Assembly: GCF_039555335.1 (NCBI RefSeq)
Contig: NC_092629.1
Coordinates: forward strand, 34,303,796-34,367,795
Direction: 5' to 3'
Length of the DNA stretch: 64,000 bases
Source: Amphiura filiformis
Lineage: Eukaryota > Echinodermata > Ophiuroidea > Amphilepidida > Amphiuridae
Positions 20,245 through 63,200 of this stretch are shown here, in pieces. The notes beneath the pieces are model-generated. The model worked only from the letters and a program-made list of their open reading frames with translations. It made no database searches and was not told the origin of the DNA. Position 1 is the first letter of the stretch; the number at the start of each line of letters is the position of its first letter. Position numbers and translations under genes: made by a program.

Positions 20245-20698
20245 CTACTCTTGATAGATACCGTAAACCATTCCAACAGCATACAAAGAATTATTGTTGT
20301 ACGCATAGTGCGCATAAGTGTCAAACTTCTCATTCCATACGCACTGACTGACGCAACTCAAAGTCCCTTTATCCGCTGATCCAATTGTCACAACACTAAC
20401 AATCTTATACCGTGGACTTCCAATGAGCTTCACACGTGCTTTGATAGCATCTGCAAGTTGCTTACATAAACCTGGACATTTATCAGCGTCGTATTTTTTC
20501 AGATTCCAACTCGGCTTCTAACACATCTCTGATTGTATCCTCGGCTCTTTTGGTAGGAAATTTGCGATCAGGTTCCATTTTGTATGTACATTCTAAACGG
20601 ACTTGCTGCGGCGGCATATTTACGGGTGGATGAACACTTGTTTGCCCCCCACTCCGTTGCGTTGATGCCGAAAGTTTGCTTGCCACAATCTGTGCCAT
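20245..20698 (-). pseudogene. Intronless Tctex1-type dynein light chain with one +1 A frameshift
   Basis: The frame starts MAQIVASKLSASTQRSGGQT at 20698 and runs through a Tctex1 domain: YKMEPDRKFPTKRAEDTIRD, then, after the frameshift, KLIGSPRYKIVSVVTIGSAD, CVWNEKFDTYAHYAYNNNSL and AVGMVYGIYQE, stop at 20245. PRYKIV, the C-W-x-x-x-x-D-T run and the final VYGIYQE are hallmarks of Tctex1 light chains (DYNLT family), which are subunits of cytoplasmic or axonemal dynein. At about 20490 a run of six A on the coding strand (TCTGAAAAAATACG) breaks the frame; five A would give EKYDADKCPG and about 150 residues in total. No introns are present in a region where other genes have many, so this is probably a retrocopy. 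It may be intact if the extra A is a homopolymer error. Confidence 0.85.
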
Positions 20699-23459: not shown

Positions 23460-23974
23460 ATTAAGGGTTATGAAAAAAAAACCAGAATGTTATTTCATAG
23501 GCCTAGTGTAAAATATTTGTTGGCAAACAATTTTGCACAATATTTTGTCAACTCTTAATCACGTTAGGGAACAAACCAAAAGATCGATGACGTCCTATAA
23601 ACGAAACTAGTTAAGGGGAGGGGTAAAAATACTCGATTACGTTTGTAAAAAAACATCGGTCTGAAGAATGTGTCATTATTAAGTTGTAAGCTTTTCTTCA
23701 TCAAAATGGTCTTTGTATCAAAAACAAACATTGCAACCGATGTCTACTAATAGTAATAAATAAATGAAAAAAAAAATCATCGTATCTCCGGTAATACGAA
23801 TTTCTTGCACCATTCTTGATAAGTTAACTGAAGAAACATATCATCTCAATTAGTAAGTTTAATAGCGGGTTCGCCGTCGGACAAGTTTGGAACTGTCAAG
23901 CTTTTGTTAGGAGTAGCTCTGACCTCTTCATGACAAAATACCTAAAAATGAGATATGCGTCCCTTGCCTACTGA

Positions 23975-24565
23975 TGGCTCAGAAAAGAGCCGTTCACAGA
24001 AGACTGCCTCTTGTTAACAGCGAACAAGCAGACCCCGCCTATCTGCTAAAGTAAGAAGTTTGGTGGCTCTGAAAAGAGCCGTTCACTGAAGACTGTACCT
24101 TGTCAACAGAGAACAAGCAGACCTCGCATATCTAAGTAAAGGGTTTGGTGGCTACGAAAAGAGCTGTTCACTGAAGACTCCCTTGTCAACAGAGAACAAG
24201 CAGACCTCGCCTATCTGCGAAAGTAAAAGGTTTGGTGGCTCTGTAAAGAGCCGGTCACTGAAGACTGCATCTTGTCAACAGAGAACAAGCAGACCTCGCA
24301 TATCTAAGTAAAGGGTTTGGTGGCTACGAAAAGAGCTGTTCACTGAAGACTCCCTTGTCAACAGAGAACAAGCAGACCTCGCCTATCTGCGAAAGTAAAA
24401 GGTTTGGTGGCTCTGTAAAGAGCTGTTCACTGAAGACAGTCCCTTCAACAGAGAACAATCAGACTTTGCTTATCAGCTAAAGGAAATGTTTTAGTGGCTC
24501 TGAAAAGAGCCATTCAATGAATACTGTCCCTTGTCAACAGAAAACAAGCAGACCCCGTCTAAACA
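23975..24565 (-). repeat. 85-89 bp tandem array, each unit carrying a histone mRNA-type 3' stem-loop
   Basis: Seven units start at 23975, 24064, 24149, 24237, 24322, 24409 and 24496. On the minus strand each has the hairpin ggctcttttcagagcc, or a variant, with aac just 5' and acca just 3'. These match the metazoan replication-dependent histone 3' end consensus bound by SLBP. The hairpin is exact in the units at 24064 and 24496. It is intact with a TTAC loop at 24237, and has stem mismatches at 24149, 24322 and 24409. The remainder of the unit (gagaacaagcagacctcgc and flanks) is not histone-like. No purine-rich downstream element (AAGAAAGA-like) and no histone ORF is seen nearby. Confidence 0.85.
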
Positions 24566-28883: not shown

Positions 28884-31800
28884 GTAAGTAGTGTCATAAA
28901 CTTAAGTTTCATTGTAGGCCTATATATGTGACCACAGATTTTCAAAACATACCCTAAACAAGATATTGCCCTTTTGAAAAATACATTTTGCAAAAAAGAT
29001 CCTTAGTTTTAACATACGGTAGGCCTACTTGCTTTTTTCTCAGGTGATCCAACTCAGACGATGGTGACATGGAGCACATTCAACGACACCAAAGAATCAA
29101 CGGTAGAATTTGGATTCCAGGTGGAGAACATGACCATGACAGCATCTGGTAGCAGGACTAAGTTTGTTGATGGAGGTTCAGAGAAACATACACAATATAT
29201 ACATAGGGTAACACTGACCAAATTAATGCCTGGATCTGTGTATAGTAAGTAAGTGCTTGTTCTGTCCAGGCCTTTGGGCTACAAAAAAAAACTGTTTTAC
29301 TGGCCCAACAGGCCCAATTTTTGAATTTTTTGGAGAATTTTGTTGTTAATGTTGTAAAATCAGCCTTTTTTTGACCAAAATTTTGATTTTTACTGAAATT
29401 TTTGAAAAACCATTTTCAAAATATGTTTGCAAAAGTTTTTTATGCTTTCAGTGATATTTTATGATCATTTTAGCCTCCAGGTAAAAAAAGAATCCAAACC
29501 GACCGACCCTATACTTGAAAAGTCCATCCACCCATAAGACAGGGTGGTTTTTTTCATCGCTCTAGCCAGGATTTTTTTGGGTGGTGTGAGACATCCAAAG
29601 TGGGAACCTTCTTCAGAAGCAATATAGACTTTCCTGTAAAGAGTGTAACAGTTGACTTTTGGTGGATTTTGTTTATATCTTGACTCAAAAAAGTGTAATT
29701 TACAATGTACACACCTTTTCTTCAAAATTGGGGCATTTTTGTTATCCAAAAATTGGGGCTTACCAATAGATTTCCAGAGGGAGGGGCGGTAGGGCTTGGA
29801 AGTTTGGGATGGATTGAATTATTTTCTTCTTTGATGAATTTCAATGTATTTGTCAAGCACAAAGGAGAATCTTTTCAAGCTAAAGAGTAATCTCAAAGTT
29901 TTGTCCCTAAGCTTGTACTGTACGTGCAACCTAGTTTTTTGTCCTACCACAGATTGTTTTGTTGCATTTTGCAAGTGGAGGAAGTTCTTATTCTTATTCC
30001 AGCCCCTCCCACTCCTCACCCCCTCCCACGCCCCAAATCTTATGGTGCCCCCTTGTAGCAAATATTTTCTAAACCAAACCTGATCCAGCAATCACAAAAC
30101 TTTTTCAAATACATCGCAAAAGATTAGGAAATATTGCCAGAAAATGTTTAAATGATTGGTTATACATAAAGGGAAATGAAGATTATATAATTTAAACCTT
30201 TTTTTACATTTCAAAAACATTTCTTTGTGTATTAGGCTTCACTTATCCCTTTCCCTAGAACACATAGTGCAGAGTATATCTTGTAGTTCACCTAAAACAA
30301 AATATAGATTTTTTTTCTTTATATCATTACAGTGTATCGGTGCGGCAGTTCATACGGTTGGAGTTCTGTATTCTACTTCCGAGCCTTGCCATCTGATTCC
30401 ACTCCTGTAAGCGGTATACGTTTTGCAGTGTACGGGGATATGGGGAACGAAAATGCCCAGTCACTTGGAAGACTACAGGTAGAGGCACAAGATGGAGTCT
30501 ATGATGCTATACTACATGTAGGTTAGTATCATGGACGAAAGAGATAACAGACCGCGTACCATCAGTCAAAGTCTCTCCACCTCATCCGATAATGAGGGCC
30601 GATTGTTCCATGAAATGCGACAGGCGAGATTGCTACGCAATTACCACATATTTTCATGGTCTATTGCATAATCGCGAAAGCACACAACGCTCTATCGCGA
30701 AGGCACGCAGCGCTGGCGTGATTGTTTGACACGGCAGGATCGAACAATCGGCCCTCATGAATATGCGAGAACTGGTAGCATACAATACACGGGGACTTTG
30801 ACTGGTGGTACACGCTCTGTCTTATCTTACTCCTCTGTGGTTAGTATAATGATATTTACAAAACAAAATCCACCTGAATTGGGCTATTCCATTTAAAATC
30901 CACACTACCCCTGTGGAAGATTTAGCTAAAGTCTACCACAGAGGGAGTATGAGTTTTGAATATAATAAACGATTGGGTAACTTCCATTTTGAAATACTCA
31001 CTCCAGTTGTGGAAGATATAGGTAAAGCCATAGTAATATGGGGGAGTATGGGTTTAAAAATGATTAACCCTGACCAATTACATATGAAAAACATACTCCC
31101 CCTGTGGAAGATATTTCCAAAATCTTCCACAGGGGTAGTGTGGATTTTAACTGGAACAGCCCATTGGGATATTCCATTTGAAATCAGCCATACCCCTGTG
31201 GAAGATCATTAAGAAATGTGTCCTTCAGAGGGAGTATATTTTTCAAATGGAATCAGCTAGGGTTAATTATTTGGAAACCTACCCCTGTATATGGCTTTAC
31301 CCAAATCTTCTGCAACAGGAGTATTTCAAAAGATACTTTTATCTAGTTTTTGATTCAAGATTTTTTTGTTACGTGGTCCGAAAACATTTGGGCCAAAAAA
31401 TGTTTCTTTTTTGTGTGGGGGATTTTCTCCACAACTGCGCATTTTTGCCCAAATTTGACCTTACAGATGAATTCATCAAGTCTATGCCATTTTAAATATG
31501 TATACTTTTATCTACTTTAGACCAACAATTTAGCAGTTACGAGGCCCAAAGGTTTCTGTAATTCCAGGGTTAAGACCAACCTTAAACATGTTAAATCTCA
31601 CTATTTTTGCAGTAATAGAACAGAAATAGATGGTGTTGCAGTATTATTTGTACCCAAATAAAGTGTCTTTGGCAGACAGCAGTAAACCTGATAATTCTAA
31701 ATTTCATTCTACTACCAGGTGATTTTGCATACGACATGGAGGTAGACAATGGCAGGGTCGGTGATGAGTTTATGCGTCAGATTGAGACAGCGGCTGCCTA

Positions 31801-34800
31801 TGTCCCTTTATATGACATGTCCTGGTAACCATGAAAATGCCTAGTAAGTGTAGCAAACAAACATAAAGACACACAGACAGACCAACACACAATGCCAGGG
31901 TTGGTGATGAGTTTATGCGTCAGATTGAGACAGCGGCTGCCTATGTACCTTATATGACATGTCCTGGCAACCATGAAAATGCCTAGTAGGTGTAGCAAAC
32001 AAACATAAAGACAGACAGAATGACAGACAATGGCAGGATCGGTGACAAGTTCAGGTGTCAGATCGAGACAGCGGCTGCCTTATGTACCTATATGATATGT
32101 CCTGGTAACCATGAAAATAACTAGTAAGTGTAGCAAACAAACAGAAAGACAGACACATGCACCCTTGAAACCATATCTACTACACCCTCATAAGATACCC
32201 TATGAGAAATGTGCATAGAATAGTTAAATGTCAATTTTGTGTTCTGCCCACAGCAACTTTTCCAATTACAAGAACCGTTTTACCATGCCAATGTATGAAG
32301 AAGTAGAGAGTTTATGGTATAGGTAAGTGTTTCTCAAGAATAAGCCCTGCAGGTTTGTGTGCGTTTGTAAATGCCTCCAAACGAGGACCTACATATGGAT
32401 ACACACCATAAAACGAGGAAACACCTCCAAACGAGGATGTCCTCGGTTTGAAACTATGACAAGGATGACGTAAATGATGCAAATATGCATATAAGATAGC
32501 ATATAAGATAGGTCCCCCATAGGGGGTATAGGACGGGTCTCAGTTGGATAGTAAGTTGTCTGGTGTGTTTGTATGAGGTCCACGGTGTGTCAATTAAAAA
32601 AGGGTGTGTAAGTCCTCGGTTAGATCCTCCTAAAGTCAAGGTCCTCGTTTGAACGAAACAGTACAAACAGGGGTGTGTGTGTGTGTGTCGGGGGGTATTT
32701 TCACCGCTATGTATGAAAAAGAGTCTATGGTCTAATCTATTTAAGTGTTTCTCAAGAATAAGTTCTGCAGGTTAGTATTTGTTTCCACCAACAAACAAGG
32801 ATACACCCAGTATGTTTACACAGCAGATAAGCAAAATATTCTTTTTATGATAAACAATTTGCAACAATTTTTTTTCAAAATTGAACAAGTTACCCATGTA
32901 CAATAAAATTGTATCATTTGACCCCAAAATAACTGAGGTTTTTGTTAATTAACTCTGTAAAAATAGGTTGTAGATAGCACAAACTATTCATTTTAGAAAT
33001 CCTTGTGATCAGACAAGTAATTTAGTGTATTTGTCAGCAAAATTGGAGCATTTTTAAATGTTTTCTTCAATGTGATATTTTCTTCAACCCACAGTTGGAA
33101 CATTGGTTCAGCTCATATCATATCATTTTCAACAGAAGTCAATTTCTTTCAAAATGGGCAAGATGTGATAAAGAATCAGATGGCCTGGTTAGAAAAAGAC
33201 CTGGAGGTAAAAATGATTTCTCTGTTATTCTTTCATAATATCAGATCAATGTAACTCTTCTGGAAATTTGCAGAAATTAATCCAGAAATGGAGCCATAAA
33301 AAATTCAGGAAATAAACAACAGTGGCGTAACTACAGTGGCGGCAGTGGCCCCTACCCCGCACCGAGAATATCTTAGATGCGGGGGTGTAGGAATAGCATT
33401 GGCATATTTTTTTAAGTGAGGCCAATTTGGCGCCCCCTAGTGGTAGCGCCCGGGGTACATTGCCCCCCTCTTGCCCCCCTAGTTACGCCACTGATGAAAA
33501 ATCTGAGAGATGCAGGTAACTGTTTCAAAATGGTAAATATTTTCCCCATTTAAATAAAAATGATTTAATTTAGGATATAACAAATAAGATGTGTTATCTA
33601 ATTGCCAAACAGAGTAAATGAGAAACACAGGGTTGACCATCCCTTCAACAACTCTTTCTATACCTTTGTACTGAGCCAAGCGTTATTAATCGGGGATCAG
33701 TGAATCTACAGTCCAGTAGCGTATACGTGAATGCAAGCTTATAATGCGTATGCATACGCTGCATCCCTTGGTTGCTAAATGGTTTATAGGGTGTGTCCTT
33801 GGCCTAAATAGTAAGCAACTTTCTGTAAAGTGCAACAATCTTATATATTATGCTATATATAAATCTGTGTGGGTTTTTAAGGACTGAGAAAGTTTATATC
33901 AAAATCACTCTTCAACTCTTAACCCTCTTTATTGAGATTTATAAATCATACTAAAGTTTCTTTCTTGTCCATTTTCAGGAGGCCACCAAACCTGAGAATA
34001 GAGCCAAGTATCCCTGGATCATCACTATGGCTCACAGGCCTATGTATTGCACTAATACCGATCGGGACGACTGTACTAAAACAGATAGCATAGTAAGTAA
34101 TAAAAATAATGCGAGGGTTCATGAGGAGAGTTGTGGTTCATGAAGCTTGGATGAAATTTTATTTGATTTGTTTGGGTTTTGATAACCTTGGATGGCCCAA
34201 GAAAACCTCTATTGAAGCTTATTTCCATTGGGTTCCATTTGAACACCGGGACGGGTTGGGAACAGTCAGGAGTTAACACCCTACTCTTTTTTAACTGGCT
34301 GTGAGATACATGTACAGCTATAGTTCTCTGTATACGGGACCGACAGCTTAACGTCCCCTCCGAAGGATGGAGTACTTTCATGATTCATTTACCCAATTCT
34401 AAATGAACCACGGGGAGATTGGAAGTATGAATATAATCTACAGAGGTTGCCAATTAATTTCAGTCATTTTTCCCCAAGTCAATATCCCAGCAAATCTCCA
34501 CAGCTGGGAATTGAACCTGGGACCTCATGCACTAAAGGCAAGTACCCTAACCATATTAGGCCATACTCTCCCCTAGTGCACATTGGTTTGATTCAAGTCT
34601 TTGATAATCATGGCATATAAATAAAGTTTTTCAATAATTTATTTCATTTTGCATAAAAGGATCTGTCAATCACATGGGCTATTCTAGTTGAAATCCACCC
34701 CCCCATGGAAGACATGACCTTAATCTCCCACACAGGGAGTGTAAAAATATATTACTTTATAATTTTTATTTCAAATCTATTTTTTTATGCAGACAAGAAA

Positions 34801-37800
34801 AGCATTTGAAGACCTTTTCTACAAATATGGTAAGTACCAGTGTATGTGTCAATGTATTTATGTATAAATCCTGATCACCCTTAGGTTAATGGGCATTAGG
34901 CTAATGGGCATCAGTTACCGATCTGATCACATAAATAAACCAACTAGTTGGTCTGGTGTGATCAACTAACTGGTATACAAGTACCATATTCATTCCAATT
35001 AACAAAGCCATTTTGAAAAAAAAAGTCCATTTTTTCAAAATCAGGCCCCCCAATAAATCCTGGTTATGTTCCTGGGCAGACATCCTCCACAAAAACATTA
35101 TTGCCAACTTTAGCTTGAGTGTATCAGATTATTATTATTCTTGATTTTGTTTTTTTAGGTGTTGATTTGTTTATTGGGGCTCATGAGCACAGCTATGAAA
35201 GGTTGTGGCCTGTATATGATAATAAGGTAATTTATTTATTTATTTATTTATTATATTTATAACAATAGGCTAGAAAGTCTGTACAAACCCAATAGTGAAA
35301 CCACTAAATTAAAGGGATGCCCATTACATCAAAACAAACAAAAAATACAGGACAGGGACAGGTTGAATGGAGAAATAAAAGGAGACCAAATGAAATGGAA
35401 GAAAATAAAAAAGGAAACCCGGTTACACAAGGTGGAGACAAACAGCAGATTTGAAGGCTGGTAGGGAGGTGCATTTAACAACATCCTCAGGCAGGTATAG
35501 TTCCATAAGGTGGGAACATATGGGTTAAAAGACCTTTGGCAAAGCGTAAGTCTTCGGAAAGGTATATCAAGAGAGAGATTGCTGAGAGTGGTCTTGCGGT
35601 GAGGCTTGAATGGGTTGGGAGAAGCGCAAAGGTTGTTGAGCATCTTGAAGAGATGGCTTAGGGCCACGGCTTGATTTGATCATTAATTAAATTTTTTGAT
35701 AAAACATAATGATGTTCAATTCTAGACCTGGACAATACCAACAGGTATCACACTGTAATATATACATATATTTTTAGGCATTTTTGATATACATTTTCGT
35801 TTCTTTATCACTTTAGGCCTATTCATCTTTTTCTGCTTTTTGTGGTAATTTTTATTCTATTATTTAAATATTAGTGTGTAAATTAAGGGCGCTATTCACA
35901 TATATTTTAAATTTATTTAGCCAAATACACTAAGCCAAAAAAGAAACTTATAATTTTTCACAAGGTCATATCTTAAAATCCTGTCTATCAAAATTAACCA
36001 AAATTACACACAGGATTGCCTCAATACTCTGCTCTAAAAACATGTCACTAACTATACAGTTGTCCAACTGACACAACCGCAAAATGCACTGACATGCAAC
36101 ACCTTCCTGGACCACATTCACAGCGCAACAGATTTCTTTGGCTGGGTTCCAATTATTCACCTGTGATTGTGATCCCGGAAGCTGTTCCGTGTCAATGCAT
36201 TTTGCTGTTGTGTCAGTTGGACAACTGTTTGGTTACTGACATCATGACATGTGTTTAGAGTAAAGTATTGAAGTAATCATGTGTGCAATTTTTGTTCATT
36301 TTTATGGAGAGGATTTTAAGATATGCATGACCTTGTGAAAAATTATAAGTTTCTTTTTTGGCTTAGTGTATTATAAGTTATTCCTTACATTTCATGATAA
36401 AAAGTTTTTACTCTTTTTCTGATGTTTTAATGCCATTATACCAGTGTTTACCACTTGTAAAAATGAAACAGTGTTCCCCTTTTCTTAAAAATGACGTAGT
36501 TTTACATGCTATCAAACAACCGTGGGGCAGCAATGTCGTTTAACCTCTCAGTGCTTGGTCATCCTTATTATTCATTATAACTCAACAAATGTTGTGTAGC
36601 GTAAATTTTGGACACAATAATTTTTGTAGGATATAAAATAATTTAGTTAAATCTCTCCATATACTTTTGTACTTTATCTGTGAACAGATTTGATCAACTG
36701 TTAAGAATTCACTTGCATTGTAAGTGTTGGACTTATGCAAGGGAAACCATCTAATGGTATATAATGCTTGAGTTAGGTTTTAATTATGTATGTAGTCTTT
36801 GTGCCTAAATTAATTGAACTTTTTACTGAATTTCTTACTTCAGATTTACAATGGCAGCATGGATGCCCCATACACAAACCCTAAGGCACCTGTGCATATT
36901 ACAACAGGATCTGCGGTAAGTCATGTCTTCAACTTTGTACAATTTGGCATATAAACGGGCGTAGCAAGCGGGGGTGGGGACAGGGTAGACAAAGTCCATG
37001 GGCCCGAGGGTTCAGGGGCCCCAAGCACAAAAGCCGTAAATAAGAGCTGATAATGGAGAGCAGGGCCAGATTTACCATTGGGCCAGATGGGCCCTGGACC
37101 CCAAAATTGGCCTATGCATATTTCCTTTTACCTCAAACTCTTTTGCGTTCTTTGCGCACAAATGTCTTAGTAGCATTGGAACAAAACATGTTAGTCCCCA
37201 TCTATATTATACGTAAACCAAAACTTGGCTACTGACTTGAGTGCATGCCCAGAGCCCCCCCATAAGGTAAATCCCGCCCTGGTTAAAAGGGCCCGTACCA
37301 GTGTTCCTTGTTCCTGATGCTTTTGCTACGCCCCTGCATATAAATGAGCGGAATAATTCTGGTATACCCTGCGCACAAGTATAACCTTAATTCTAACCCA
37401 ACCCTAAACCAGAATTGTACCATATAGGAATATAGGGTGTGCAGGGTAAACCAGAATTGTCCCAATGAGGGTAATCAGCTCTGTGACTTATATATCCATA
37501 CACCCTCCAATGGAAGACATGACCTTAATCATCCACACGGAGAGAATTTCAAATGGGGTTACCTGAAAGGGTGATTCCATTTGAAATATATACACCCCTG
37601 TGTTGAAGATTAAGGTCATGTCTTTCATTGGGGAGTGTGGATTTCAATAGCCCATTACCCAATATACAGCCTGTCACTTACAATAAACAGAAACATCAGT
37701 ATAAATAGTGGACAGTTTGGACATTTTGTTTCATTTGGATCCTAACTTAACCCCATGAGAACTACCTGCCTATTGGTCAAAAAGAAGTTTTCATTATCAA

Positions 37801-39196
37801 TTGAACCAATCAAACATAATAGAATAATTTCACCACACAAAAAAATTGGGGTGAATTATTTGCAAAGCTCCATTCTGATTGGTGATTAAAATGAAGATAT
37901 CATGTAATTGACCAATCAGAGGCACTGTAGATCAGCAGGTAGTGCTCAGGGGTTAAGTATAATATTGTACTTCATATTAATGTGTTGTAATCATGCTATT
38001 GTTTTAAAAGGGTGACTTTGACAGCGAATGGAAGTGGTCACATAACTCCCCATAGTAACAGGTTCACATACCTTTTTTTTGGCATGATATTAGGCCTATA
38101 TGTGGCAGGCTTTATGGCGATCATTTTGATTGTGGTTCAAGACTCAAAAGCTTGATCCAGTTGACATAGTGATAATCAGATGTAACACTACTAAGCTAGG
38201 GAATCATGGGGCATGGGTGTTTCATGCTATGAATACAGTACAAAAGTGTTACCTTTCACATGAATTTCCTTGCTTTCCATGTCCAGGGCTGTCGAGAGAA
38301 GCATGATTTCTTCTTCTTAGACAAGCCGTGGTCAGCTTTCCGTTCTATTGATTACGGCTACACACGCATGATGATTGTGAACTCCACCAACATCGATTTC
38401 GAACAGGTGTCCGATGACCAGGTATGAAAACTTCACTTATCAATTACATATCACTTTTCATCTTCTATTTCTTCCTTTTGTCACAGGGAACTTGAATCGG
38501 GATCATGGAGCTTAATAAAACACACAATTACGCTAGCTTCTACGGAAATCATTCACTGCATTCCATTCCAGAGATTTGGCTACAGCTACATGCTTCTTTA
38601 CTTTAAATTCCACTCATATGTGACTCATATACATGTAGAGCAAGTTTCAGATGATAAGGTAATGTTTGCAGCATTTTTCCTTTCTTTCATTCTTTTTTTG
38701 GGTTCTTTCTTTCTTTCTCTCTCTTTCTTTCTTTCATTCATTCTTTCTTTCTCTTTCTTTCTTTTTATCTTTTGTTTGTTATTTCTTTCTTGAATATCAT
38801 GCTTTACAGTACATCATTGCTTATGTAAACACATTCACATAGACCCTGTACACATTGAATTGTCTTCATTTGACAAAGATTAAAAATGCTATCTGTAAGT
38901 TGTCTTTAGCAGAATAAATTTGCATATTAGAGGCAGTCCATTATCCAGATTTGAATAAATTTGCATATTTATTAATTGAACAATTTATTGATTATTTTAG
39001 TATAATTGTTATAGTGATCGTTATTATCATTATTATCATCATCATTATTATGTTTATTGTTATTATTACTATTATTGTTATTATGAAGTACTGTTGTTGT
39101 TGTTATTATTATCTTTATTCTTTTTCACAGGGTGGACAAATCATAGATAAATTCACACTCATCAAAAATCTACATGGACCAGAAGCATGGCTCTAG
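28784..39196 (+). CDS. Purple acid phosphatase (ACP7-like), 12 coding exons, secreted; one frameshift in exon 4
   Basis: Coding exons are 28784-28883, 29044-29244, 30333-30521, 31719-31843, 32254-32322, 33095-33206, 33979-34092, 34793-34829, 35159-35226, 36844-36915, 38287-38421 and 39131-39196. All have AG/GT borders and matching phases. They total 1288 nt; removing one surplus T in exon 4 gives 428 residues plus stop, close to the usual length of animal acid phosphatase type 7. The protein starts with a hydrophobic signal peptide (MRSVLICILGLVSVVTA), then an N-terminal fibronectin-like domain (QPEQIHLSATGDP..TMVTWST). The binuclear metal-site motifs follow in order: GDFAYD, GNHE, MAHRPMYC and GAHEHSYER. 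Members of this family hydrolyse phosphomonoesters at a Fe-M centre and are secreted or lysosomal. The start is the first ATG, 17 nt after a splice acceptor, so at least one 5' UTR exon lies upstream and was not located. The family call is firm. Whether this allele makes full-length protein depends on the exon 4 frameshift. Confidence 0.93.
29044..29244 (+). CDS. PAP gene 1, coding exon 2 (N-terminal fibronectin-like domain)
   Basis: The exon opens directly after cag and completes the split Gly codon to give GDPTQTMVTWSTFND. It ends LMPGSVY in phase 1 before gtaagt. The region is the N-terminal Ig/fibronectin-like domain of PAPs, which packs against the catalytic domain. Confidence 0.9.
30333..30521 (+). 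CDS. PAP gene 1, coding exon 3 (start of catalytic domain)
   Basis: Acceptor attacag; the exon encodes YRCGSSYGWSSVFYFRAL, then the first metal-ligand strand (FAVYGDMG), and ends ILHVG across the junction. The donor is g|gttagt. The nine bases from 30521 spanning this donor are repeated at 30839-30847 as the target duplication of a transposon. Confidence 0.92.
30530..30838. mobile_element. 309-bp transposon whose target duplication copies the exon 3 splice donor
   Basis: The 9-bp direct repeat ggttagtat lies at 30521-30529 and 30839-30847. The first spans the last base of PAP exon 3 and its 5' splice site. Imperfect inverted ends include gcgtaccatcagtcaaagt and actttgactggtggtacacgc. Inside, gagggccgattgttcc is inverted as gaacaatcggccctc. 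There is no coding capacity. The 9-bp duplication suggests a Mutator-like family. Confidence 0.85.
30878..31330. mobile_element. MITE copies, gggctattcca family, in PAP intron 3
   Basis: A full copy at about 30878-31166 (gggctattccatttaaaatc to actggaacagccca) is followed directly by a second, partial copy. Confidence 0.72.
31719..31843 (+). CDS. PAP gene 1, coding exon 4 (GDFAYD...GNHE), with +1 T frameshift
   Basis: After the acceptor the exon reads GDFAYDMEVDNGRVGDEF, then the expected YVPYMTCPGNHENA stretch. Between Pro and Tyr the sequence has ccctttatatg where the neighbouring copy (31891-31985) has accttatatg, so one extra T shifts the frame and gives an early stop. With 124 rather than 125 nt, the exon's phases match exons 3 and 5. 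It holds the metal ligands of GDFAYD and GNHE. The donor is ta|gtaagtg. Either a sequencing error or a null allele would explain the extra base. Confidence 0.85.
31891..31985 (+). pseudogene. Second copy of exon 4 3' end plus donor
   Basis: This copy starts aatgccaggg and stays open in the PAP frame through YVPYMTCPGNHENA up to a donor-like gtaggtg. It lacks the exon's 5' part (GDFAYDMEVD). The nearest upstream AG (31897-31898) would join exon 3 in the wrong phase, so it is unlikely to be used as a simple substitute exon. Confidence 0.8.
32029..32123 (+). pseudogene. Third copy of exon 4 3' end plus donor
   Basis: This copy starts aatggcaggatc. It is more diverged but still open: two compensating indels turn the AAYVPYMTCPGNHE region into AALCTYMICPGNHE. 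It ends at a canonical gtaagtg donor. The intronic tail (tagcaaacaaac, agacagaca) is also repeated, giving a tandem period of about 138-143 bp. It lacks a matching 5' part and acceptor. Confidence 0.78.
32254..32322 (+). CDS. PAP gene 1, coding exon 5
   Basis: Acceptor cccacag; the exon encodes (Y)NFSNYKNRFTMPMYEE and continues VESLWYS across the junction. Phase 2 on both sides. Donor ag|gtaagtg. The N-Y-K-x-R-F-x-M-P run directly follows the GNHE motif in animal PAPs. Confidence 0.92.
32703..32775 (+). pseudogene. Decayed copy of exon 5 3' end and donor region
   Basis: The sequence from ctatgtatgaaaaagagtct to ttctgcaggtt parallels 32287-32355, which spans the end of exon 5, its donor and the first intron bases (gtttctcaagaataag is shared). 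The donor GT is lost in this copy (tatttaagtg). It is a duplicate of an exon-intron junction lying 400 bp downstream of the original. Confidence 0.65.
33095..33206 (+). CDS. PAP gene 1, coding exon 6
   Basis: The exon follows cccacag and encodes WNIGSAHIISFSTEVNFF, then a helix ending NQMAWLEKDLE. It closes in phase 0 before gtaaaa. W-x-x-G-x-x-H is a conserved PAP signature preceding the QxxWLExDL helix. Confidence 0.92.
33320..33493. mobile_element. hAT-type MITE in PAP intron 6
   Basis: Ends cagtggcgtaac and gttacgccactg. The flanking 8-mers ataaacaa and atgaaaaa agree at six positions. Confidence 0.65.
33979..34092 (+). CDS. PAP gene 1, coding exon 7 (MAHRPMYC motif)
   Basis: Acceptor ttttcag; the exon encodes EATKPENRAKYPWIITMAHR, then PMYCTNTDRDDC, ending in phase 0 before gtaagt. 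The His of MAHRP is a conserved metal-site residue of the family. The paralogous exon in gene 2 has the same 114-nt length. Confidence 0.93.
34395..34580 (-). repeat. tRNA-derived SINE in PAP intron 7
   Basis: The minus strand has an A-box-like tggcctaatatggttaggg and a B box ggttcaattccc at tRNA-like spacing (about 34487-34575), with a non-tRNA body after it. Confidence 0.7.
34793..34829 (+). CDS. PAP gene 1, coding exon 8 (37 nt)
   Basis: A 37-nt exon between tgcag and gtaagta encoding TRKAFEDLFYKYG. The gene 2 equivalent (60577-60613) is also 37 nt and encodes TKKAFEKLFYKYG, which confirms this very short exon. Confidence 0.92.
35159..35226 (+). CDS. PAP gene 1, coding exon 9 (GAHEHSYER motif)
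   Basis: Acceptor tttttag; the exon encodes GVDLFIGAHEHSYERLWP, then VYDNK. It carries the last metal-binding motif (H-x-H) of the PAP active site. The donor is aag|gtaatt. Confidence 0.94.
35233..35690 (-). mobile_element. LINE 3' fragment in PAP intron 9
   Basis: The minus strand at 35329-35667 encodes the C-terminal tail of a non-LTR reverse transcriptase ORF (PFRRLTLCQRSFNPYVPTLW is the diagnostic stretch). A tttat microsatellite at 35233-35262 sits at its 3' end, as for LINEs with short tandem tails. 5'-truncated. Confidence 0.7.
35925..36372. mobile_element. ~445-bp foldback in PAP intron 9
   Basis: aatacactaagccaaaaaag at the left is mirrored by cttttttggcttagtgtatt at the right. The arms extend about 190 bp each with cagttgtccaactgacacaa / ttgtgtcagttggacaactg near the centre. 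Confidence 0.82.
36844..36915 (+). CDS. PAP gene 1, coding exon 10
   Basis: Acceptor acttcag; the exon encodes IYNGSMDAPYTNPKAPVHIT, then TGSA, 72 nt in phase 0. The donor is g|gtaagtc. It is single copy here, whereas the same junction is amplified into a tandem array in gene 2. Confidence 0.93.
36956..37336. mobile_element. hAT-type element in PAP intron 10
   Basis: Ends cgggcgtagcaagc and ttgctacgcccctg. 8-bp target duplication catataaa at 36948-36955 and 37337-37344. Confidence 0.8.
37350..37470. mobile_element. ~120-bp palindromic MITE in intron 10
   Basis: attctggtataccctgcgca is mirrored by gtgcagggtaaaccagaatt. It is related to the split copy at 50244-50560. Confidence 0.65.
37490..37655. 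mobile_element. MITE, gggctattcca family, in intron 10
   Basis: Palindromic halves with catacaccctccaatggaag and its approximate inverse near 37620. Confidence 0.65.
38287..38421 (+). CDS. PAP gene 1, coding exon 11
   Basis: Acceptor gtccag; the 135-nt exon encodes GCREKHDFFFLDKPWSAFRS, then IDYGYTRMMIVNSTNIDFEQ and VSDDQ, before gtatga. The Y-G-Y-T-R and EQVSDD runs are typical of the PAP C-terminus. Confidence 0.93.
38487..38658 (+). pseudogene. Decayed duplicate of exon 11
   Basis: The sequence starts with tcacag|ggaa like gene 2 exon 11 and ends EQVSDDK before a good gtaatg donor. Its 5' half has a stop (GGA ACT TGA) and extra bases. An internal acceptor at 38571 would yield an 87-nt, phase-0 exon (RFGYSYMLLYFKFHSY and onward) that could substitute for the end of exon 11. 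It resembles gene 2's exon 11 at least as much as gene 1's. Confidence 0.75.
38676..38795. repeat. CTTT-type microsatellite in intron 11
   Basis: A run of ctttctttctttc-type units directly downstream of the decayed exon 11 copy. Confidence 0.85.
39000..39115. repeat. ATT-type microsatellite before exon 12
   Basis: Imperfect tat/att units ending 15 bp before the last PAP acceptor region. Confidence 0.8.
39131..39196 (+). CDS. PAP gene 1, coding exon 12 (stop codon)
   Basis: Acceptor ttcacag; the exon encodes GGQIIDKFTLIKNLHGPEAW, then L and TAG. It closes the PAP reading frame. Confidence 0.93.
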   Translation, partial: GGQIIDKFTLIKNLHGPEAWL

Positions 39197-43347: not shown

Positions 43348-43725
43348 AAGTAGTTCATCAATGCCCTATCTACTGCTGATAGCAAGTAGTTCATCAATGC
43401 CCTATCTACTGCTGATAGCAAGTAGTTCATCAATGCCCTATCTACTGCTGATAGCAAGTAGTTCATCAATGCCCTATCTACTGCTGATAGCAAGTAGTTC
43501 ATCAATGCCCTATCTACTGCTGATAGCAAGTAGTTCATCAATGCCCTATCTACTGCTGATAGCAAGTAGTTCATCAATGCCCTATCTACTGCTGATAGCA
43601 AGTAGTTCATCAATGCCCTATCTACTGCTGATAGCAAGTAGTTCATCAATGCCCTATCTACTGCTGATAGCAAGTAGTTCATCAATGCCCTATCTACTGC
43701 TGATAGCAAGTAGTTCATCAATGCC
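43348..43725. repeat. 36-bp minisatellite, 10.5 copies
   Basis: Ten identical-looking units starting aagtagttcatcaatgccct followed by a half unit. Because 36 is divisible by 3, it is open on both strands as 12-residue repeats (MPYLLLIASSSS and RALMNYLLSAVD). No promoter, splice context or homology supports translation. Confidence 0.97.
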
Positions 43726-52415: not shown

Positions 52416-55400
52416 CTGTGAAAAATAATAATATTAATGACAATAATAACAACAAAAACAACAACAGTAACAATGATGATAATAATTATAATGATAATAA
52501 TCACTTCAGGGAAATTAAATTATTCACATATGCTGATTAACATGCACATTTATCAGGGCTGTTCCTAGGGATTTTGCCACCCTAGGCAAAGACTCTCCCT
52601 GCCGCCCCACGTACCAAAGCATACCTAAAAAAGTGTTAAGGGGGGTTACCCCCTTGAAAACTCATCAGTTTTGACCTATTTGTATACTGCCCCCTTCTTA
52701 TTTTCCTCCCATTTTTCTTTCCGCCTTCATTTTTTTCTTCCCTTTTCTTTTTCCATTCCCATTTTTTCTTTTTTCGCCCTTTTTTTGGCGCCCCTCTGCA
52801 TTTGCCGCCCTAGGCGATCGCCTTACCTGGCCTAATGGTCAGAACAGCCCTGACATTTATTCTGCTACAGATAGTCATATATCAATAAATTAACATAACA
52901 TTTTTGGAATAAATTGCAATATTAGCATAAAGAATATGTTTGTGTAAAAAACACCGTTTAATAGCAATGACTCTAAAAGTGACCAAAATTTGTACATTTA
53001 GGGGCTATCATTTTCTTCGGAAGGGAGTCCCAAATATACTGGGCAGGGGTTCAAAAATTTTTGGAAAGAAAAATAAGGGGTTCATAAAATTTAGGGAGTC
53101 ATAAGATGACCACAGATAGTGTGTTTATTTTATTAAAAAAGACTGATTTCAATATAATTTTAGCCTGTTTAGTGGTAAAGTGAATCTGTGTTGGGGGGTT
53201 CATAAAATTTTTGTTGCCAAAATGGGTGGGGGTCGCAATTTTATTGATGCCGACTCTTTGTAAATTTGGGACCTCCTTCCGAAGAAAATGATAGCCCCCT
53301 CCCCTTACCTTATCATTTGAAACTTGCTCTGCGTGTATATGGGTGGAATTTAAAATGAAGAAACGCGTATAACCGATGTCTGAAGCTTGGAATGCAGTGA
53401 ACGATTCCCGTGGAGTTATGAGTTGTTGTCCTTCCTTATTTCCCTGTTACATGAGGAAGAAACACAAGGTGAAAAGAGAGTTTTAAAATTGATACGTGAA
53501 GTTTTCATACCTTCTTCTGATTATCAATAAGTTTTCATACCTTTGTTGTAGATAGTGCATCTACTAAAAAGTAAATTTCCCAAATATAGTTTTACTTTTA
53601 AAATTAGGATTTTTTTCAAGTGTAAGGATACTTTTTTTGGCACAGAATAAATTTGAATTGAACCTCAACATACTAGTATCTGTTTCCATGCACTTTCTTT
53701 CTTCCATGGCTAACATTTGATTATATAGCACTCAAATTACACACTCAGAGTTCAACTTGAGACATTTACTTTACGGGACTACGGGGTTTGTGTATGGGGC
53801 TTCCTTGACTTACCGCATAGCCTGTGATAATATGCAGTTGCCTTAGGATTTGTGTATGGGGCTTCCTTTTTTTTTTTTTTTTTTTTTTTTTTTCATTTTG
53901 CTTTTAGATTAAACAGGACAAAAGACAAATAACTTGAGGAAAAATAAATAAATAAAAGATAGAAAGAATAAAAACAACACACACAAATACTAAAGCATCT
54001 CTTATATCACTAGTACGATACAATATTATACATATTTTTAAATTCGTTTAAATACTTTGTTTGTCCGTGGGCACATGAGAAAGACAATAATAATTAATAT
54101 GTTATATTTATATATAATTACTTTGTTGTTACATTATTTTCTTACACAAAACCTTCCCATTTCATACGAAAGATATTCAATTTATTTATTCTCTGAAAAC
54201 AAGCTTTTTCTTCTTCAATTTTTTACTTAAAAATGTGAGAACGTAGCGATATATGGTTTCTCATTTGAAAACCTGTTCCTAAATAAATAATACTTAGCAC
54301 TCAGAATAATATAGTTAAGCACTTTGAACCTTGAATGTCCTTCCAGTCCCAAAATTATATCTTTGTAACATAGATGTATTCGAGTCTGTATCTTTCCATT
54401 TAACCATGTCTCTATCTCCTTCCAAAAGAGTTTATTTGATGGCATTCCCAGAACATGTGATCAATTGTTTCTTTATTTTGACATAAATGACAATTTTCAT
54501 TCTCTTTCAGATTAATAAGCTTTAAATAACTATTGCTTGGAATAATTCGATGAAGGATTTTATATTGAAAAAATCTCATTCTTTCTTCAGTGGTAATTTG
54601 AAAAGGTAATGTCCAAATGTATTCCCAATTTAGATTACCCAAATGATCAAACAAACGATCATAATAATTCTGATTGACTGGTTTTGTTGATTGTGACATG
54701 TTAAATTGTTTAGATACATCACGAGTTGTTAACTTCTTTACTTCTAACGAAATGTTTTTTCAATACTTTTAAGTTTTCCCATATCTGTTTCAGAAAGTTT
54801 CTTTATTTCTAATTTCCATTCCCTTGGTAAACTATTTATAACACCGTAATATGTTACAAAATCAATACATCGTCCATATTTTTCACAAAGCTTCCTTGAC
54901 TTACCGCACAACCCGTGATAATATGCACAGTTGCCTTTGGGTTTGTGCATGGGACTTCCTTGACTTACCGCACAACCTGTGATAATATGCACAGGTGCCT
55001 TAGGATTTGTGTATGGGGCATAACATGACTTACCGCAGAGCCTGTGATAATATGCACAGTTGCCTTTGGGTTTGTATATGGGGCTTCCTTGACTTACCGC
55101 ACAACCCGTGATAATATGCACAGTTGCCTTTGGGTTTGTGCATGGGGCTTCCTTGACTTACCGCACAACCTGTGATAATATGCACAGTTGCCTTTGGGTT
55201 TGTATATGGGGCTTCCTTGACTTAACCGCACAACCCGTGATAATATGTACAGTTGCCTTAGGGTTTGTGTATGGGGCTTCCTTGACTTACCGCACAACCC
55301 GTGATAATATGTACAGTTGCCTTTGGGTTTGTATATGGGCTTCCTTGACTTACCGCACAACCCGTGACAATATGCACAGTTGCCTTTGGGTTTGTGTATG

Positions 55401-58400
55401 GGGCTTCCTTGACTTACCGCATAGCCTGTGATAATATGCACAGTTGCCTTAGGATTTGTGTATGGGGCTTCCTTGACTTACCGCACAACCCGTGATAATA
55501 TGCACAGTTGCCTTTGGGTTTGTGCATGGGGCTTCCTTGACTTACCGCACAACCCGTGACAATATGCACAGTTGCCTTTGGGTTTGTGTATGGGGCTTCC
55601 TTGACTTACCGCATAGCCTGTGATAATATGCACAGTTGCCTTTGGGTTTGTGCATGGGGCTTCCTTGACTTACCGCACAGCCTGTGATAAATATGCACAG
55701 GTGCCTTAGGATTTTTGTGTATGGGGCTTCCTTGACTTACCGCACAACCCGTGATAATATGTACAGTTGCCTTTGGGTTTGTGTATGGGGCATCCATGCT
55801 GCCGTTGTAAACCTGAAGTGAACGGTGAAATGAAAAATCAAAATCAAATTGAGTTCGGGCAATGGCTATTCCAGTTGAAATCCACACTACCCCTGAGGGA
55901 GTATGTTTTTCAAATGTAATTTTTTTCACTTACAGTGCACTTACAAAGGGGAAAAAAACTGGAAAATAGCAAAAAATTATATAAGTCACTACTGGAGAAA
56001 ACATTTCACATTACACAAACGAGCGTAGTGAAAAACTACTGGAGAAAACATCACACATTTGTTTCAAATACCTTTTTTAATTGGCAGGTTGAAAGGGGGA
56101 TCATAAATATTCTTGAATATGAAGAAATATGTTTTTTGTGGGTGTGGGAGAGACCCACTGTAAATTATTATTCAATTTGCAGTAAAAAGTGTTTTTGGTT
56201 TTTTTTTTCATTTCAAGGCATGGATTAAAAAAAAATACATTGGGTGAAGGCAGTTTTTGATAACCAAACAACCGATTTTTTGAAAGCAGGAGGAAACCGG
56301 AGATTCTGGAAAAAACCTGTGAGAGCGAGCATGGAATTGGGATAAACCAAGTGCACAGGAGTCCTTGGGCCGTGCCGGGGCTTGAACCTAGGACTTCAGT
56401 GGTGCAAGGCGAGGGAACGAATGCTGCGCCAACTCGCTCTAACTAAAAATTGCAGTGTGCTTTTTAACATTGTTAATACACTGTGATATTATAGGAAATG
56501 AGTCAGGAAAGCCCGGTACCCCAGGTCAACATAAAAAGTGGTAACCATGTGTGTTCTAAATTTCGCGGAAAAGGGGTATTTTGTTGACTGAAATCGCGGA
56601 CTGCGAAAACGCGAAAAAAGGGGTATTCTGAGCATTGTCTCCGCGAAATTAAAAAAAAAAGGGGTATTTCACAGGTTCGTTCGATCGATGTCTTCAGCCC
56701 GAGTCTTCAGCCTCCATCCTCTGGCATTTCATTGATTCCGCCCTCAATCGTCACAGCGAGAGCGTCAGAAGGCAGCTTTTTACTATTGGCACGGCGGTTT
56801 CCGATATAGTTGTCTAGTGGGTGTTGCACGTATGCTCCCGACGCTTTGAAGAGAGCTGAATGAGCGAGCGCGAACATCGATGGTGTCAGATGTAACCGTT
56901 TTGGCTGCCGTATACACTTTTCCATGTGGTGAATTGAAAACATTGCGGGAAACATTGGCAGTGATTGGAGCGAATTCTACGACCGACCGAGTGATATTTT
57001 CGAGGGATTGTTCCTCTTTGGTTCATTTTCAATTAAAATCAGTATACAGGCATTGTAATTACCCCAGTTAATAACACAGGATCATCTGGGAGTACAACAG
57101 ACACAAAGTAATGTTCATACTTGCACATTTTGTACTTAATATATTAAAATATTTGGAGTCATTGAAAAGGGGTGTCTGGAAATCTTCTCATTGAAAACCT
57201 TGAAAAAGGGGGGTATTTTTTACCCTGATTTTGTCAGTGATTTGGCAAAAAAAGGGGGGTAAAATCAATGAAAAATCAGTGAAAAGGGGGGTTTTGAAAA
57301 AGGAAGAACACACATGGTTACCACTTTTTATGTTGACCTGGGGTACCGGGCAGGAAAGCCAGATTGCACTTATATTTTCATAGGTCTTCACTCTTATGGT
57401 TTTTGAGTTAAGGCCAATATGTGACGTATCATGTCAAAAGGAGACACTTTTGGGCAGGTTATCAATTTTGAGGTTTTTATATATCTTAAATATAGAGATA
57501 TTTTGCGCTACAACGCCATTTTCCCCAATGAAATCTGACATTCCTAAGCGAAGATATTGAGTTCGTAAGTTATGGTATTATAAAATTGGAAATTGAGATA
57601 TCAGCCTTTAAAAATAGTATTGACAATGTTGAGAGTCTAGTAGGAATTACCTTGAAAAATGGCTCAAAAAATACAAGATGTCAGTTATATTCCGGTTTGA
57701 AACTATCAGACAATATTTTTAACATTAATAACATCACAAATTCGCAACAAACCCAAATTGTGAAAAAATCAACCCGGGAAGATTTTTGGCTATTTCTCCA
57801 TTTACGATCCTGCCCGGGATCTTCTTTATAGAATGCATACCATCCCTCTTTTGTATCAGCTTTATTTGTCTCAATATTTGAGTGTAAACACTGATAGGTC
57901 ACACTCCCTCACCTACCCATGGTTGTTGGATGGCATATTGAACTGATTCATTTGTAAGCAAAGTTGAACACTGATGGTGCTATTTATCTGAAATCTTGTT
58001 TGCATCTTATATAAAGTTATATGACTTTATGTCTGCGATAGAACTCCATGTTAAAGAACCAAAATAGCCAGTGGAGTTTCTTTCACTTAAACAGAAAGCT
58101 GGACAGAAAGCCTTCACGGCAGTTATTACTACTATTATTTCAGCATTTTGGGTAAACAATAACAAAATTAAAATTGGGCAGAAATCGTACATTATGGCTT
58201 TTGCCCTGGTTGCCATCCACACTTGTGAAAATTACCCATTGGTTAAGAATCAGTCAGAATAGGTAAATTTTCACAGGAAAAGTTTCTGGACACGTGACAC
58301 CCATGGGCGCAGACATATTAGCATTATCGAATGTGACCCCGAGCACAGCGGGTGGTCTTCCAATGTATTTGAATAGGAAGAATTCCTCCTTTGATGCAAA

Positions 58401-61400
58401 ATAAGTAACTTGTCGCAAGTTAATAATATTATGGTAAGAGTTTCCGTAGATAGATATTTTTGAAATTACATTTTGATGATATTGTGAAGAAATTAGGATT
58501 GCATGATATTTAATAAATTTGCAAGACACAAATTTCTATCGAAATTGCAGCCAAGAATACTATTCCAATTCAAAATTACTAAGACTTGAATAGCGAGGTC
58601 ACCGCCAGGGGTCAGAGATCAGGCTCGAGGTCACACTTACATTGATACCCATTGGTCACGTGTCCAGAAAATTTTCCCGTGAATTGACTGAGAATGGTTT
58701 CGAGTAAACTGTTATTTGGCACTCTGCAGAATTCATAAAAATTACCGTGTTATTATATACAGGCCACATTCTTCCATAGCAGTGTATATGAGCCCCAAAA
58801 TATAAATCAACACCTAAGAAAAACAAAATTCAAGCAGAATAATTACCATTTCAAATACACACTACCCCTGTGGAAGATTTTGGAAATATCTTCCACAGGG
58901 AAGATATTTTCAAAATCTTCCACAGGGGTAGTGTGGATTTCAAATGGAATAGCCCATGAATGTTTAAAATTTAGGCAAAATACAATGTTTAACATCCCCA
59001 CTCGCTTTTTAGGGGTTCTGACACCATAAGAAACCAGAACTGCACTAAATTGTTATACAGGGCGTTGGCTCTAAAAAAAAGTTATGGTATGTATTAAAAT
59101 CCGACAATTTCACACTCTGTGGCTTTTATGCTGTATCTTGTTATGCTAAATCCTTTCCCTTTTTTATGCGCAAGAGGTTGTTCCTACACAGGTGACTAAA
59201 TATCACATTAGGGTACTCGGGGAATATATTGATTTTCTTTTTTTTTCTTCTTTTTTATTGGTAACTTTTTTAGTAAAAATGTTTTAAAGTTAACATGATT
59301 TACTGGAAATAAATCTGCTTGTGAACAATAAGCATTTTAATGCAGGTTTGGTGTTAATCAACTGGCCCTCAGCAAATAAAAAGATTACAAGATCCATAAG
59401 TTACTGAACTGATCATGATAACCTCAACCATGAAAATGATACAAGTAGATCCATGGATCATTAATGTTACCTGTTTTCTCATTTCTCAGATCCCTCAGAC
59501 ACACCCTCCCATGTATGGAAAAAGAGGTGACCGTTTTGGCTTCTGCTTTGGCCACCCGTACACTTCTTATTTTAAGCAATGATAACAATAGTATCATAGT
59601 GGTCTACAAAATGACATCATTTGGGATACTGAGGGGGCACATCCCCCTCACACATCACATGTAGATAAAGGGGTGTCCGTTTTGACTTCACTGTTGGACA
59701 CCCATATAACTTTTATTTTAAGCAATGATAACAACAATATTGTCAAAATGGTCCACAAAATGGCGTCATTTAGGACTTCATTTAAAAAAAAAAAAAAATA
59801 CAGCGAGGGGTACATCCCCGTCACACATCACATGTAGATAAAGAGGTGTCCCTTTTGGCTTCTGTTTTGGACACCCCTACACTTTTTGTTTTTAGCAATG
59901 ATAACAATATTGTCAAATAGTCCACAAAATGGCGTCATTCGGGACTTCATTAAAATTTAACAAATACTGAGAGGGGTACATCCCCCCTCACACATTACGT
60001 GTAGATAAAGAGGTGTCCGTTTTGGCTTTTCTTTTGGACATCCCTACACGTTTTGTTTTCAGTAAGCAATGATAACAATATTGTCAAAATAGTCGACCAA
60101 ATCACATCAAATGGTTCACAAAATGGTGTCATTTGTTTATAGGTTTTTGACAAAATACTGGAGGGAGGGGGTACATCCCCCACACCATTGTTGTGTTAGG
60201 ATAAAAAGGGGTCCGAATTGGCTTCTGTTATGGACACCTGTACACTTTTTGTTTTAAGCAATGATAACAACAATAGTGTCAATATGGTTCTCAAAATGGC
60301 GTCATTTGGGACTATATGTGTTTAGATTCTTAACAAAATACTGTGGGGGCACATCCACTTCACACACCATGTGTATCTATGTAGAGGTGTCCATTTTGGA
60401 AGGCACAATGCTTCATGAAACATCATGAAGTAATGCATTTGTTACGTGTGTGAGACGAAATGTCACATTAGATTGCAAATTGCTTTTGTTGAATGCATTT
60501 GAGTAGTCTGTCATATTTATGGTATGATACGTCATATGCACAACCTCTATTACTACCTGCAGAGACTGGTACTTACCATATTTATAGAAGAGCTTTTCAA
60601 ATGCTTTTTTCGTCTGAAGAAAAAGATAGAAAATAAATAAGGAATAAAGAAATAAATAGAATATTATACATAGTAAGTAACCTTTTTGACAATGTACATG
60701 TGATCTTTATAGAAAAAAAAAGTTGTTGGGCAGGATAAAGCTTTAAGGCTTTATGTGTTTTTGGCCCCTGAACATGTTTAAAACAAAATTGCCAACAGGT
60801 TACATACAAGGTTTTGCTTTAAACATGTTCAAGGGCCAATGACGCATATCCGCTTAATGCCATGAGAACTTGATTTCATGTACAGAAGCATTTAGAAGTA
60901 CATAACTGATGTCTGTTTGACCTCACAATAAAACCTGATTTGAACCCATCTCCATGTCAGTCAGTGTTGCCGATGTCTTATAAGCAGTGAAAGCACAAAG
61001 CCATGGCAAATCAGCAATTGACCTCCCAGACTCCCCGACAACACAGGCCCCCTACTTTTATACAACATCCAAAACCAGGATCTAAAGTTAAATAGTCATA
61101 TATTTCAGCAAAGCCGTGGTAAACAATTTTATGCTATAAACTGAACTAGCATAATTTGGGGGCTTAACCGTGGTGTTGAGAATATTATATTGTACCTTAT
61201 TGTATAGCTTTCGTTCTCAATCAATCAGGATCCGAATTGTAAAAATAACTGTAGGAGCTAATGATTCAGCATGTGAATGGTATTTTTGATAGGCTTAAAG
61301 ACAGAAAGACGAACAGAGATTGAATACGGTATACAGCTTTGAATTTGACAGAGAAATGATAGAATATATAATAACCCATAACAACCTCTGCATTTAAGAC

Positions 61401-62551: not shown

Positions 62552-63200
62552 ATCTAAAATGAGCGTTTATTGCGTTTCGACAGTATTTTTTGTGGGACAT
62601 AAGAGCACCTCAGACCTATCGAATTGCATTCTGAATACGAAGCATGTCTTTCTGATACCAAATAATTTTCATTTTTTGAAAATCATAATACAAATTTTAT
62701 GACAAATTATAAAAATTTGATATTTTTCAAATTTTTGGTATATAACAGTATATACAAATCTAATGATATATTCTTAAAGTGTATGTAGGAGGGAGGAAAA
62801 GCCGACGGTCAATTGAAAAATTTTGACCTTTCATTATGGAAGATATGGATTGTTTAAAAAAAAAAGACCTAATTTTTTTTGGTGTTTTGGGAAAAAAATC
62901 CATATCTTCAATACTGAAAAGGTCAAAATTTTCAATTGATCGTCGACTTTTCATCCCACCTACATACACTTTAAGTATAAATCATCAGATTTATAAAGTT
63001 TACTTCAAGTACTTTTAAATTTCAAAAATATCAATTTTTAATGATTTGCCATAAAATGTGTATTAAATTGCAAATTTCAAAAAATCCAAATTATTTGATA
63101 TCAGAATGACATTCTTCGTATTCAGAATGCAATTCGATATGTCTGATGTGCTCTAATGTCCCAAAATAAATACTGTCCAAACGTTCATACCCCAGCCCTT
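62552..63200. mobile_element. Full foldback element, gtgggacat-agagcac family
   Basis: The left arm has cgacagtattttttgtggga and cgaattgcattctgaatacg; the right arm has cgtattcagaatgcaattcg and a mirrored tgtcccaaaataaatactgt. Central halves are aagatatggat and its inverse. Terminal inverted repeats are about 120 bp. Confidence 0.82.

Follow-up and report, generated by a model that had tools for sequence, protein, structure and literature searches.

In a window of 64,000 nucleotides from Amphiura filiformis (the whole stretch of DNA analysed; contig NC_092629.1, positions 34,303,796 to 34,367,795), the end of exon 10 of a purple acid phosphatase (PAP) gene on the minus strand, here called gene B, is repeated about 15 times in tandem together with its 5' splice site (donor). 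We consider it probable that this array belongs to the minisatellites known as 'mirages', was seeded by chance over the exon-intron boundary, is nearly neutral, leaves the first donor as the one mainly used and has exchanged sequence with the coding exon. Its anatomy suggests a large representative of this little-known class of repeats: the tandem units straddle the exon-intron boundary of a gene, and splice signals are present in many of them (GTAAGT in 14 of the 15, GTTAAG in one). Exons 8-12 of gene B matched Metallophos_C (3e-17) and Metallophos (3.8e-6), and fragments of a paralogue in the same window, gene A, matched Metallophos_C (1.6e-19) and Pur_ac_phosph_N (2.3e-13), which identifies both as PAP (ACP7-like) genes. 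The parts of the array and its surroundings are as follows (a slash marks an exon border).

55741..55812, minus strand: exon 10 of PAP gene B (72 nt, phase 0), VYNGSMDAPYTNPKATVHIITGCA; the final 50 nt form unit copy 1
55812-55741, minus strand: borders of exon 10, acceptor cacttcag/GTTTAC and donor GCG/GTAAGT; frame open into exon 11
55735..55740, minus strand: donor 1, GTAAGT, the junction yielding the native protein
54905..55740, minus strand: units 2-14, 63-67 bp each, with donors 2-14 at the unit ends
55019..55040, minus strand: paralogue-like junction CTCTGCG/GTAAGTCATGTTATG at the boundary of units 12 and 13 (columns 3, 8 and 58; from the alignment)
54890..54897, minus strand: upstream copy of the target-site duplication AAGGAAGC
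53867..54889, minus strand (gene orientation): 3' fragment of a long interspersed nuclear element (LINE), 1,023 bp, of which the poly-A accounts for 27 nt, with zf-RVT in the LINE open reading frame (ORF)
53861..53868, minus strand: downstream copy of the target-site duplication AAGGAAGC
53784..53866, minus strand: unit 15, whose donor 15 has its +1 position at 53813, followed by an incomplete last unit (about 30 nt) that reaches to about 53784
53309..53443, minus strand: exon 11 of PAP gene B, 135 nt, whose acceptor is common to the 15 donors

Reading GCG/GT on the minus strand gave 15 donors at or after exon 10, with +1 positions 55740, 55673, 55609, 55545, 55481, 55417, 55353 and 55290 for donors 1-8 and 55226, 55161, 55097, 55033, 54968, 54904 and 53813 for donors 9-15; over the 13 contiguous steps, successive donors are spaced by 63-67 bp. 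Tandem Repeats Finder described 54890-55795 both as 14.1 copies of a 64-bp unit (score 1487) and as 4.7 copies of a 193-bp period of three units (score 1529). A 23-mer laid over the donor and the junction was matched 13 times in the window at up to three mismatches, against no match in 100 dinucleotide-preserving shuffles. The splice-site array of about 15 copies that the initial annotation had described is therefore real. Its account of the unit (the last 50 nt of exon 10, GTAAGT and a few intron bases; eight by our count, making 14 nt of intron in a unit of 64 bp) was right as well, as was the canonical donor in 14 of the 15 copies, the exception being GTTAAG at donor 9 (55226). Two details had to be corrected: the first donor had been placed at 55741, which is the last base of the exon, its +1 position being 55740, and the array had been taken for one unbroken run, whereas a LINE fragment at 54889-53867 interrupts it. 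Directly upstream of exon 10, at 55847-55909, lies a copy of a dispersed repeat (GTGTGGATTTCAACTGGAATAGCC-like) that occurs on both strands in many places of the window, among them 30853-31209 and 58739-59052, and that had no match in the viral_contigs or genome_contigs collections.

The insert lies between donors 14 and 15 and divides the array into 14 donors and one. It carries the marks of the 3' end of a LINE (a non-long-terminal-repeat retrotransposon), namely an ORF matching Pfam zf-RVT (E 2e-9), a poly-A of 27 A at 53867-53893 and a target-site duplication, which we count as 6-8 bp because two of the bases may belong to the poly-A. All five AATAAA motifs on the gene strand of the intron are found inside this insert. 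Joining its flanks in silico restored the 64-bp register exactly; at the time of the LINE insertion, therefore, the array comprised about 15 units without a break. An assembly artefact, in the array itself or in its number of copies, is very unlikely. There are odd single-base insertions or deletions (at donor 9, in unit 2 and as a frameshift in exon 5 of gene A) of the type seen in uncorrected long-read assemblies, but the units differ by up to nine substitutions, and a LINE with its target duplication sits within the array.

The origin of the array may be read from the paralogue, in which exon 10 is present once:

36844..36915, plus strand: exon 10 of gene A, single copy, aligning to gene B exon 10 at 88.5%

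Two CATG motifs of gene A, one within the exon at 36858 and the other behind GTAAGT at 36922, are spaced by exactly 64 bp, the period of the array. CATG is the only 4-mer in the paralogue that is repeated 64 bp apart from the exon into the intron; TTAC at 36835 likewise recurs at 64, but starts upstream of the exon. Template slippage or end-joining between the two CATG motifs could have produced the first 64-bp duplication. The exon of gene B reads CATGGATG, and CAAGGAAG begins 12 of the 15 copies; unit 13 begins with CATGTTATG, and unit 15 is cut at the LINE insert. These unit starts fit a founding at CATG with later changes. The consensus unit, inspected by eye, contains an AG (aaggaag) that is not preceded by a pyrimidine tract; intron gain by tandem duplication would call for a usable acceptor in the unit besides the donor.

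The mean number of substitutions between units is lowest at a lag of three units (3.75, versus 5.29 at a lag of one), and units 4/7, 5/11 and 6/15 are free of substitutions between them, the largest difference between any units being nine. The similarity at lag three and the identical pairs indicate block-wise growth and turnover of the array. Unequal exchange of about three units at a time would have brought it to some 15 contiguous units, after which the LINE fragment inserted in unit 15. As to concerted evolution, which in mirages excludes the boundary units, the pair 6/15 includes the last unit and some changes are common to the exon-side copy and the units, so that an exclusion of the boundaries was not seen.

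Indeed, the coding exon appears to have taken part in this turnover. At columns 28, 35, 40, 53 and 58 of the unit the base of the exon copy differs from that of the paralogue and matches some of the units, while the paralogue base is kept in 5, 2, 12, 7 and 1 of the 15 copies, respectively. Since these non-paralogue bases are shared, exon and array seem to have exchanged sequence, in one direction or the other; a history without exchange would require a parallel change at each column. Two of the five columns affect the amino acid (P to T and S to C). Among the five structure alignments shown, the first of these positions carries P (apvyit) in four and T in one (3zk4), and the second carries D or G in all five and C in none; C therefore looks derived, and T is not unique. 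If a relative without the array has the single-copy junction TCTGCG/GTAAGTCATG, this would support that exchange has written both replacements into the exon.

Part of the exchange history would be spurious if the paralogue-like block in units 12 and 13 were a gene-conversion patch from gene A instead of an old unit. Gene A lies in the same window, tens of kb away, and its state is found at column 58 in unit 12 and at columns 3, 8, 28 and 35 in unit 13. Such a patch would have to be short, as none of the 15 copies has the gene A state at the flanking columns 49, 50 and 56; at columns 28, 35 and 53 that state is also seen in the scattered units 2, 3, 6, 9, 10 and 15. We regard gene conversion as unlikely.

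With respect to the donors themselves, an identical context of 11 nt surrounds 14 of the 15, and the predicted pairing with the 5' end of U1 is -9.3 kcal/mol for these 14 and -5.5 kcal/mol for donor 9. The same 14 rank as the top 14 of the 148 GTs scored between the end of exon 10 and the acceptor. These donors are accordingly equal in sequence, as the initial annotation had described them. Nine columns were drawn at random from the 64 (20,000 draws) and their minority cells counted; as few or fewer minority cells than in the donor were found in 9.7% of the draws (P 0.097), so the donor is no more invariant than expected by chance. Two of the 56 sliding windows of nine columns were as invariant as the donor window. 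Given this P value, the presence of GTAAGT in 14 of the 15 units is no evidence of selection, and selection on the donor was rejected as an argument for function.

What each donor would yield was derived by joining it to the acceptor of exon 11 and translating the product; retention of the intron was translated as well. Donor 1 keeps the reading open through exon 11 and gives the native product. Donors 2 and 3 lead to short frameshifted tails, whose stops are reached 8 nt and 28 nt, respectively, after the start of exon 11 (135 nt). For the other 12 donors (4-15), and equally for intron retention, translation terminates at one common TAA within the third unit, which for donors 4-15 lies 60-1,792 nt upstream of the junction of exons 10 and 11. 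It had been proposed that each choice of donor changes the reading frame; this is not exact, as with donors 4, 7, 8 and 10 the length modulo 3 is regained, albeit downstream of the common TAA. Nonsense-mediated decay usually follows a 50-55-nt rule, and by that rule the stop-containing transcripts would be expected targets.

Functional variants of the C-terminus, which had also been suggested, are a most improbable outcome. Two distinct short tails do result from donors 2 and 3, but a single identical truncated end results from 12 of the 15 donors and from retention, distinct products come from donors 1-3 only, and none of donors 2-15 yields the normal C-terminus. In the gene B test protein Metallophos_C covers residues 88-149, and residue 97 is the last one encoded by exon 10; donors 2-15 therefore lose most of this domain. 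The meaning proposed for the array in the initial annotation is thus supported in part: a neutral minisatellite fits best, a source of C-terminal variants is a weak proposal, and a regulatory donor cluster is neither favoured nor opposed by the sequence.

A further possibility is that the array is a device for poison splicing, in which donors 2-15 compete for and draw off part of the transcripts, and PAP output falls proportionally with copy number. The 14 donors alike in context and predicted U1 pairing would suit such a role, as would the early stops that follow from all of donors 2-15 (in the array for 4-15, in exon 11 for 2 and 3) and the reported use of two downstream repeat units as donors in IFI6 (PMC4526556). 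The amphioxus mirages, on the other hand, are reported to leave splicing undisturbed, and the conservation of the donors is within chance; we hold this function to be doubtful. Even less probable in our estimate is a combined role, in which the array acts as a length-tunable brake, 14 donors of equal strength competing with the native one and copy number setting the amount of productive PAP mRNA, and in addition edits the PAP protein, as unequal exchange carries substitutions from the array into the coding end of exon 10. Within this combination, the exchange with the coding exon is supported by the shared bases described above, the brake being hypothetical.

Returning to the near-neutral mirage, we expect that donor 1 would predominate in splicing, since the 72-nt exon should be favoured by exon definition and the stop-containing transcripts of the other donors would be removed; the array would then be close to neutral. 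Several observations weigh against this explanation. The equal context and U1 pairing of 14 donors mean that sequence alone gives donor 1 no preference, and SF2, reportedly described by Krainer et al. in 1990 as activating proximal donors, would favour the downstream copies. The retention of the donor in 14 of the 15 units, though non-significant, points toward constraint. The match at CATG is 4 bp long, and the polarity of the five exchange columns depends on a single paralogue. Finally, the human IFI6 gene does splice from downstream units of its array (PMC4526556).

Mirages were described in amphioxus, where they affect the globin genes BflGb6 and BflGb9 (units of 150-160 bp) and Adh3 (units of 10-72 bp), differ in length between haplotypes (6 and 3 units in BflGb6) and, as RT-PCR (reverse transcription polymerase chain reaction) and the Adh3 data suggest, leave splicing undisturbed (PMC3087553). 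PGBD5 and TnC are named as further mirage genes in another report (PMC3902484). The PAP array resembles the amphioxus cases in its minisatellite-like tandem duplication of an exon-intron boundary, in the splice signals of many repeats and in the turnover of units; it differs from them in its 15 donors, in its LINE insert and in the evidence for exchange with the coding copy.

The unit of the IFI6 minisatellite measures about 12 bp, and that of the PAP array is far longer (64 bp). In IFI6 (6-16), too, a tandem repeat at an exon-intron boundary supplies donors from its units; two downstream units act as such and three mRNAs result, use that was reported in RNA (PMC4526556), whereas use of the downstream PAP donors is hypothetical. 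A third comparison is offered by human genes in segmental duplications, which have internal tandem repeats at exon-intron boundaries, on average with units of about 30 bp in about four copies (PMC2812944). These repeats, too, are minisatellites that lie at exon-intron boundaries in recent paralogues and reportedly affect splicing, but they are said there to create introns via cryptic sites, whereas the PAP array is a row of copies of one authentic donor.

The 14 near-identical donors in one intron constitute a natural test of how the spliceosome chooses among equal 5' splice sites, a choice for which reporters with two sites are the usual system. Should donor 1 prove to be nearly the only one used, the preference cannot be due to sequence. 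The array would also illustrate how an intronic repeat may reach into a coding exon and alter its amino acids by exchange.

The paralogue had been described as having a single copy only. This is true of exon 10 of gene A, but a separate array of three copies is present at the end of its exon 5:

31744..32155, plus strand: second exon-end array, end of gene A exon 5 with its donor, 2.9 copies of 138 bp

Exon 5 itself (31719-31843) is the first copy, and the unit comprises the exon end, the donor and about 40 nt of intron. The donors have their +1 positions at 31844, 31986 and 32124, with GTAAGT in two of the three and GTAGGT in one. Relative to copies 2 and 3, copy 1 contains one additional base, and its reading frame reaches a stop ahead of the donor, which suggests that gene A is damaged or that the assembly is in error there. 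Several microhomologies of 4-5 bp were found at this array, none of them at the 138-bp spacing, which gives no support for an origin of the CATG type at this site. Between genes A and B dN was 0.28 and dS 1.06 over 128 codons; exon 11, where unlike exons are compared, gave no usable dS, and the values offer only a hint of constraint.

Arrays at exon ends were not found to be enriched in the window. Five chosen longer arrays (587, 412, 378, 906 and 477 bp) were compared with 17 approximate donor positions; two of the five cover a PAP donor, and random placement gives at least two in 14% of 20,000 draws. The comparison omitted a 2.0-copy array of 290 bp at 63123 and the low-complexity arrays, and the listed exon ends A2, A3_4, A7, A8, A8b, A12, B8 and B8b are not true splice sites. 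Behind exon 11 of gene A, at about 38500-38662 on the plus strand, lies a decayed stretch resembling exon 11, which is nearer to exon 11 of gene B (72% over 126 bp) than to that of gene A and is perhaps a former duplicated exon.

Elsewhere in the window, a tandem array at 23951-24561 on the minus strand (periods 87, 172 and 259) contains elements like the histone 3' stem-loop, with four matches to Rfam Histone3 at E 5.9e-7 to 0.69. The best of them reaches 31.6 bits, compared with a gathering score of 34; at the gathering threshold Rfam gave no match across the window, and the ORF lists, inspected by eye, showed no recognisable histone ORF. A 36-bp unit is repeated in 10.5 copies with 100% match at 43348-43725, with reading frames open on both strands, and is either very recent or a collapsed feature of the assembly. 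Finally, an ORF of 90 amino acids at 20245-20517 on the minus strand presumably resembles a dynein light chain of the Tctex type.

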